DNA from: Bacteroidota bacterium
Lineage (GTDB): Bacteria > Bacteroidota > Bacteroidia > CAIKAF01
Reading direction: 5' to 3'
NCBI GenBank assembly: GCA_016866335.1
Contig: VGMT01000017.1
Coordinates: 1 to 41,773, forward strand
Length of the DNA: 41,773 nt
The translations under genes were made by a program, and so were the position numbers. Shown piece by piece: positions 27,604 to 36,096 of the stretch (positions are counted from its first letter, which is position 1; the number at the start of each line of letters is the position of its first letter). The notes below the pieces were generated by a model. That model saw nothing but the letters and a program-made list of their open reading frames with translations, made no database searches and was not told the DNA's origin.

Positions 27604-27861
27604 TTACTTAGCTCGTTCTACAATTTGAATCAGACGCCAGTTTTTTGTTTTGCTTAACGGACGCGTTTCCATAATAGAAACCGTATCCCCGATATTGCAT
27701 TCGTTGCGCTCATCGTGCGCATGAAACTTGGAAGTTAGTTTAACAAACTTTCCATATTTCGGGTGTTTCACCCGACGTTCAACAGAAACGATGATGGATT
27801 TCTCCATTTTGTTGCTTACAACAACTCCTGTTTTTTCTTTTCTGGTTTTCCGTTCAATCAT
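27604..27861 (-). CDS. rpsQ: 30S ribosomal protein S17
   Basis: 85 residues, an OB-fold primary 16S-binding protein. [20 protein letters not shown] and [20 protein letters not shown], then [20 protein letters not shown], are diagnostic. It is the first gene after the 159-nt gap that holds a terminator and a promoter, so it probably heads its own transcription unit running to rplQ. Confidence 0.97.
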
Positions 27862-27886
27862 AACCGGCGGTCGATTATTGTTTTAT

Positions 27887-27939
27887 TCAGCCCCAAATTT
27901 AGGGATTGCAAAGGTGCGGTTTTATTTTTAAAATTCCAA
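27887..27939 (-). promoter_or_regulatory. internal ribosomal promoter-leader module before rpsQ
   Basis: Minus strand: TTGGA with TTG at 27937-27939, 20 nt, then CACCTTTG at 27909-27916, continuing GCAATCCC. The predicted start is near 27905. The first transcribed bases hold CCCTAAATTTGGGG, able to form a small CCC/GGG hairpin. The leader to the rpsQ ATG is about 44 nt. The rpsJ and rpsL modules are almost the same. Confidence 0.75.
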
Positions 27940-27961
27940 GTTGGGCTTCAATTTTTTATTT

Positions 27962-27996
27962 ACAAAAAAGAACCGCCAGCAGAATCTGCGGGCGGT
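27962..27996 (-). terminator. intrinsic terminator after rpmC
   Basis: Minus-strand hairpin ACCGCC, mismatch, GCAG, loop ATT, CTGC, mismatch, GGCGGT (27972-27996): ten base pairs around one mismatch. It is followed by TTCTTTTTTG. It starts 24 nt after the rpmC stop, inside the ribosomal cluster, and 23 nt before the -33 box of the rpsQ promoter. Confidence 0.85.
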
Positions 27997-28020
27997 ACTC
28001 GTTTTAAAGTCGCCTTTTAA

Positions 28021-28212
28021 TTATTTAAGTTGACGTTGTCGTTGTTCGGTTTGCAACCGAGCAACCAGTTTCCGCTGAACTTCAATGGATTTAGGATTAT
28101 CTAAATTCACCACTGCGTGGTTCATCTTTAACTTGAGCAGCTGAGTTTTCTCGATGCTCACTTTGTCGTTAAGCTCTGTATCAGAAAGAGCGCGAATATC
28201 TATGTTTTTCAT
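28021..28212 (-). CDS. rpmC: 50S ribosomal protein L29
   Basis: 63 residues from the ATG at 28212: MKNIDIRALSDTELNDKV, then QLLKLKMNHAVVNLDNPKSI, two antiparallel helices beside the exit tunnel. A TTG two codons upstream could start translation but the ATG is preferred. It lies 9 nt after rplP and is followed by a terminator, so it seems to end the S10 transcription unit. Confidence 0.95.
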   Translation of the reverse strand: MKNIDIRALSDTELNDKVSIEKTQLLKLKMNHAVVNLDNPKSIEVQRKLVARLQTEQRQRQLK

Positions 28213-28221
28213 GATCAAAAA

Positions 28222-32872: not shown

Positions 32873-32897
32873 AACTCTATTCCTTGTTATTCTTAGC

Positions 32898-32944
32898 CCT
32901 GTTTTTGGGATTGCAAATGTGCAAACTTTTGTTTATAATTCCAA
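32898..32944 (-). promoter_or_regulatory. ribosomal promoter-leader module before rpsJ
   Basis: Minus strand: TTGGA with TTG at 32942-32944, 20 nt, then CACATTTG at 32914-32921, continuing GCAATCCC. The predicted start is near 32910 and the leader about 38 nt. CCCAAAAACAGGG follows, a three-pair CCC/GGG hairpin with a 7-nt loop. There is no tuf gene between fusA and rpsJ. Confidence 0.75.
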
Positions 32945-36044: not shown

Positions 36045-36096
36045 CTACCCTACATTTAGGGATTGCAAAGGTGCTGTTTATTTTTCAATTATCCAA
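36045..36096 (-). promoter_or_regulatory. ribosomal promoter-leader module before rpsL
   Basis: Minus strand: TTGGA with TTG at 36094-36096, 20 nt, then CACCTTTG at 36066-36073, continuing GCAATCCC. The predicted start is near 36062, with a 41-nt leader. CCCTA, loop AATG, TAGGG forms a 5-bp hairpin at the predicted 5' end. Confidence 0.75.

Follow-up and report, generated by a model that had tools for sequence, protein, structure and literature searches.

Few bacterial gene arrays are as stable as the S10-spc cluster of ribosomal protein genes. In Escherichia coli, the rpmC and rpsQ genes share 1 nt. The wide gap (164 nt) comes after rpsQ there, so that the break lies one gene later than the one described here, as the first-pass annotation of the present locus had stated. 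Within the Bacteroidota, the published transcript map that comes closest is the one for the ribosomal super-operon of Bacteroides thetaiotaomicron (BT_2700-BT_2731). In this bacterium, dRNA-seq places BT_2700-BT_2731 among the longest transcripts, of up to about 18 kb (PMC7366714), and hence no complete break of the rpmC-rpsQ type has been reported there. The promoters of F. johnsoniae and Bacteroides, in turn, carry TTTG at -33 and TANNTTTG at -7, the latter with its G at -5 (PMC6847099).

The window analyzed here (the whole stretch of 41,773 nt) carries on its minus strand the gene order rpsL-rpsG-fusA, rpsJ..rpmC (S10), rpsQ..rpmJ (spc, including map and infA) and rpsM-rpsK-rpsD-rpoA-rplQ, in which the names of genes outside the family-search matches were read from order, size and sequence. 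The rpmC stop (28021) and the rpsQ start (27861) are separated by 159 nt (27862-28020), the largest of the 32 gaps between rpsL and rplQ, the median of which is 9.5 nt. The claim that gaps elsewhere in the cluster are mostly under 35 nt is right because only two others, fusA-rpsJ (104 nt) and rpsJ-rplC (70 nt), exceed that length. The rpsQ-rplN gap is 7 nt, and the promoter-bearing gap that E. coli has at this position is not found. Assembly error as the source of the 159-nt gap was rejected because the same gap recurs in separately assembled genomes of the same genus.

We consider it very probable that this gap is a transcription-unit boundary at which the S10 unit ends at a terminator and rpsQ, together with spc, starts from a promoter of its own, the boundary having been gained once, with a later fission. 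The best explanation appears to be that the S10/spc boundary shifted upstream by one gene relative to E. coli via the gain of a terminator and of a ribosomal protein promoter like those of rpsL and rpsJ. The anatomy of the gap, its conservation, its restriction to one clade and the fission can be read directly from the compared genomes, and the mechanism that they suggest would run as follows. Transcripts of S10 (rpsJ to rpmC) would end at the intrinsic terminator just past rpmC, and a separate sigma-A-type promoter, the boxes of which begin about 25 nt past the terminator tail, would initiate the mRNA of rpsQ and spc. This promoter would belong to a small ribosomal protein set that also drives rpsL (str) and rpsJ (S10), all members of which have a CCC...GGG inverted repeat where the mRNA is predicted to start; there, by conjecture, it might serve mRNA stability or growth-linked control. 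The boundary would have arisen in a common ancestor shared by three genera; its promoter most likely originated as a sibling copy, and the two halves, once insulated, would have become separable, as realized in genus g5.

Table. Features of the rpmC-rpsQ boundary (window coordinates) and of the leaders found elsewhere in the phylum (coordinates within each locus)
Feature	Position	Strand	Basis or remark
rpmC (L29)	28021..28212	-	last gene upstream of the break; PF00831 matches the same gene in relatives; start TTG at 28218 in the ORF list, ATG at 28212
Terminator hairpin, 6+4 pairs, one mismatch, loop of 3	27972..27996	-	fold, shuffles, footprint
T-rich tail TCTTTTTT	27964..27971	-	sequence, footprint
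rpsQ module including repeat	27891-27939	-	same class as the rpsL and rpsJ modules
-33 element TTGG	27936..27939	-	genome pattern search, matrix scan, footprint
-7 element CACCTTTG	27909..27916	-	pattern, matrix, footprint; position rule from PMC6847099
Predicted mRNA 5' end (putative +1 near 27904) and CCC..GGGG inverted repeat	27891..27904	-	
Predicted 43-nt rpsQ 5' leader	27862..27904	-	deduced from the -7 box
rpsQ (S17)	27604..27861	-	first gene of the downstream unit; PF00366, E 1.6e-34
Sibling promoter module before rpsJ	32897..32944	-	pattern, matrix
Sibling promoter module before rpsL	36048..36096	-	pattern, matrix
Mimic leaders	L226, L227, L228 1394-1438; L253 1379-1431; L274 805-856; L277 815-859	+	
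Mimic leaders	L229 1768-1812; L256 348-399; L262 350-401; L303 349-400	-	

In the direction of the genes, the gap consists of a 24-nt spacer, a hairpin, a T-rich tail, another 24-nt spacer and the promoter. The ten-pair hairpin with a T-run directly after rpmC, noticed at first reading, is present: ACCGCC-C-GCAG-ATT-CTGC-T-GGCGGT followed by TCTTTTTT, with one C/T mismatch interrupting the ten pairs; it combines the stable, GC-rich stem of an intrinsic terminator with a T-run directly behind it. Folded alone, with two pairs added, this hairpin reaches -16.7 kcal/mol, and an equally good site was found in none of 100 dinucleotide-shuffled gaps; the hairpin alone is thus strong, whereas the fold of the whole gap is only slightly more stable than those of shuffles (z -1.66). 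From rpsL to rplQ, the hairpin is the top terminator-like site of the minus strand, and no other intergenic one on that strand of the cluster falls below -9 kcal/mol. A generic sigma-70/terminator scan detected neither this terminator nor the rpsQ promoter on the coding strand, the former probably because of the mismatch within the stem and the latter because Bacteroidota promoters differ. A six-base complementarity between a terminator arm and the rpsQ leader, spotted by eye, is absent in two genomes (G002 and G005) and was judged to be due to chance.

Downstream of the terminator, the sequence reads TTGG, 19 nt, CACCTTTG, CAAT, the repeat CCCTAAATTTGGGG, 29 nt and the rpsQ ATG. The full promoter module that the first-pass annotation had assigned to rpsQ holds up, as a predicted promoter of the Bacteroidota type: TTGG-N19-CACCTTTG has in common with the sigma-A promoters of this phylum (PMC6847099) the order of the boxes, their spacing and the A..TTTG core. 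Compared with TANNTTTG (revised TAHHTTTG), CACCTTTG matches at the A and at the TTTG and has a base other than G at both middle positions, but it begins with C, as do the -7 boxes of the rpsL and rpsJ modules in the window. These modules further differ from the consensus (TAnnTTTG in the -7 box) in having TTGG at -33 and the CCC..GGG repeat at the predicted +1; the predicted rpsQ start base, a C, is unusual as well. The distance of 19 nt between TTGG and the -7 box is identical in all three modules. A weight matrix was trained on 23 promoters that precede rpsL or rpsJ in relatives, rpsQ sites and the genome under study being left out; it retrieved the modules of rpsL (60.5 bits), rpsQ (46.9) and rpsJ (45.4) as the top three sites of the window, the next scoring 3.4. 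Across the 2.45-Mb genome, the pattern TTG-N20-CACNTTTGC occurs in these three modules and at one further site, on contig C14, which precedes a long open frame starting 7 nt past the pattern and has no CCC..GGG repeat. Other occurrences of TTTGCA..CCC..GGG in the genome were not accepted as modules, having no such promoter boxes upstream, and exact TANNTTTG is no more frequent in the window than expected by chance. The CCC..GGG repeat directly follows the -7 box in 36/36 modules examined (genera g1, g2, g4 and g5). Because looser forms of it are found at rpsL of several outgroup genomes and also at an rplS-like gene of the genome that carries the window (L129), the repeat probably predates the split. 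No terminator was found in the fusA-rpsJ gap that carries the rpsJ module.

Both elements look to be under selection, judging by the counts of invariant alignment columns among four same-genus genomes. On the terminator side, invariant columns number 2/24 for the first spacer, 19/25 for the hairpin, 7/8 for the tail and 12/24 for the second spacer; on the promoter side, the figures are 28/31 for the promoter, 17/18 for the next 18 nt and 24/29 for the remaining leader, compared with 46 of the 85 third codon positions of rpsQ.

The family was sampled with 16 genomes of six genera (g1-g6, g1 being the genus of the window). The rpmC-rpsQ gap spans 158-168 nt in g1 and 187-188 nt in g4, compared with 21 nt in g2, 3-4 nt in g3 and 13 nt in g6, and all gaps of 158-188 nt, in six g1 and two g4 genomes, contain both terminator and module. 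In a tree of 12 ribosomal proteins, g1, g4 and g5 form one clade (support 100), with g2, g3 and g6 as its sister group. The clade is represented by about a dozen draft assemblies, its named members being metagenome-assembled genomes (MAGs), and the named near relatives are MAGs of uncultured Flavobacteriales. A hairpin with a T-rich tail follows rpmC in 12/12 clade genomes, with at most 1 of 100 shuffles as good in each case; its sequence differs between genera while the terminator form is retained, and in one genome (G003) a hairpin pair shows a two-sided change, G-C to A-U. Outside the clade, the median rpmC-rpsQ gap is 17 nt among 186 loci, with some genomes counted twice under different sources, and no comparable break was found; only two of these gaps exceed 83 nt, one probably on account of an extended S17 N-terminus, the other holding the helix-11 mimic described below. 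The comparison with other Bacteroidota that had been proposed on first inspection thus finds the wide gap with terminator and module confined to the g1+g4+g5 clade, and in the genomes compared the break is specific to these 12. A separate database record (L104, CP034120.1), titled Glaciecola amylolytica, a gammaproteobacterial name, holds a Bacteroidota-type S17 that is 75% identical to the query, and may be misnamed.

Genus g5 shows the two halves apart. In three of its genomes (G009, G014 and G015), rpmC is followed by a terminator and then by unrelated genes or sequence, and in a fourth (G013) a 1204-nt insert with an opposite-strand ORF lies at the rpmC-rpsQ junction. The rpsQ gene of G009 is located behind the 23S rRNA end, the 5S rRNA and an opposite-strand ORF; on contig C37 (L144 1-1800), a hairpin with a T-run also lies between the 5S rRNA and this ORF, the G013 counterpart of which resembles a solute-binding protein. 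The promoter module precedes rpsQ in G009, G013 and G014 as well. The G015 assembly yielded no rpsQ, and this genome is therefore informative on the rpmC side only. Contig breaks were ruled out as the cause of the apparent fission, given that rpmC is joined to a terminator and unrelated sequence within a contig in G009, G014 and G015, and that in G009 the 5S rRNA precedes rpsQ inside the same contig. More generally, no S17 match was obtained in G015, G028, G056, G072, G110, G127, G133 and G222, genomes rated 96-100% complete; such absences are probably assembly gaps.

A different element occupies the same gap in ten genomes of other classes of the phylum, or of other families, where GGTAGTTGGTGAGG..ACGGCTCACCAAGCC or a close variant is found shortly before rpsQ (Table). 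Located immediately in front of rpsQ, the leader hairpin GGUAGUUGGUGAGG..ACGGCUCACCAAGCC is similar to helix 11 of 16S rRNA. A covariance model (R1) derived from the leaders alone matches nt 241-285 of the E. coli 16S rRNA gene rrsB, with a rough E-value of about 8e-7. This region is helix 11, the known S17 binding site. The element looks like a candidate S17 autoregulatory leader, previously undescribed, that would act through rRNA mimicry; the covariation supporting it is weak because the paired columns hardly vary. No Rfam family matches these leaders; S17 and rpsQ are both absent from the main text of the 2020 survey of r-leaders (PMC7247131), and a 2024 review names uS17 once, as a primary rRNA-binding protein (PMC10931766). 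A search of the window for the mimic was negative.

The rpmC terminator may be leaky, with spc expression stemming in part from read-through where the halves adjoin. That the gap as a whole is a leaky boundary, where the terminator lowers read-through and the rpsQ promoter adds transcripts, the cluster remaining partly one operon and the gap setting the S10:spc ratio, seems to us rather unlikely. Such an arrangement would fit g1 and g4, where the two halves remain neighbours in the same orientation, as well as the internal mismatch of the hairpin and the tail that begins with TC; in g5, however, the halves lie apart, which makes read-through from rpmC impossible, and the same promoter must therefore suffice for rpsQ there.

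It is very improbable that the hairpin is an attenuator or a regulatory leader element of rpsQ, with no boundary involved. Ribosomal protein operons often have regulatory leaders, and a structured leader occupies the same gap in other classes of the phylum, but here the terminator (27996-27964) lies upstream of the promoter (27939-27909), the wrong order for such control; neither the window nor the three modules match any Rfam family, and the hairpin sequence is variable at constant terminator form. The possibility that the gap is what an insertion or rearrangement left behind, its signals being functionless relics, is one to which we attach hardly any weight: the sister-genus genome with the 1.2-kb insert and opposite-strand ORF at the junction would be compatible with it, but the terminator is kept in every clade member and the footprint on terminator and promoter is strong compared with the diverged spacers.

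The rpsJ module is present in g1, g2, g4 and g5, and in g3 and g6 rpsJ lies directly behind fusA; together with the tree, this distribution implies either a gain in the family ancestor with loss in g3 and g6 or two gains. The rpsQ module is confined to the g1+g4+g5 clade. Copies within a genome are only slightly more similar (0.71) than modules of different genes between genera (0.66), with the exception of g5, where the rpsJ and rpsQ modules of two genomes are 91% identical over 58 nt (0.91), which suggests that they arose by copying or gene conversion. The three window modules are 59-74% alike, so that they may instead have converged. Tentatively, and with somewhat less than even confidence, we suggest that one class of ribosomal protein promoter (TTGG-N19-CACCTTTG plus a 5'-terminal CCC..GGG hairpin) was copied in a single lineage from rpsL to rpsJ to rpsQ and kept alike, enabling stepwise dismantling of str-S10-spc, promoter and terminator first and fission later, with coordinated control kept.

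Within this one family, the cluster survives in several states: unsplit, insulated by terminator and promoter, insulated and bearing a short insert, and with its halves physically separated. This makes the order of events in the break-up of an operon readable. In functional terms, promoters of this class, which place an inverted repeat where the mRNA begins, may coordinate separated ribosomal units in bacteria about whose control of ribosomal proteins little is known. We found no description of a break before rpsQ in the open-access literature, and the published study that follows changes in this stable cluster concerns other phyla, its text containing no mention of rpmC, promoters, terminators or Bacteroidetes. 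A ribosomal protein leader or attenuator, such as the L4-controlled S10 leader, would be expected to match a known leader family and to have its terminator downstream of the promoter that it controls, and the window shows neither. The E. coli S10/spc junction shares with the present locus the local gene order, a cluster split by a boundary and a gap of similar length (164 vs 159 nt); in E. coli, however, the boundary follows rpsQ, whereas in the window it would precede rpsQ and employ a promoter of the Bacteroidota type.
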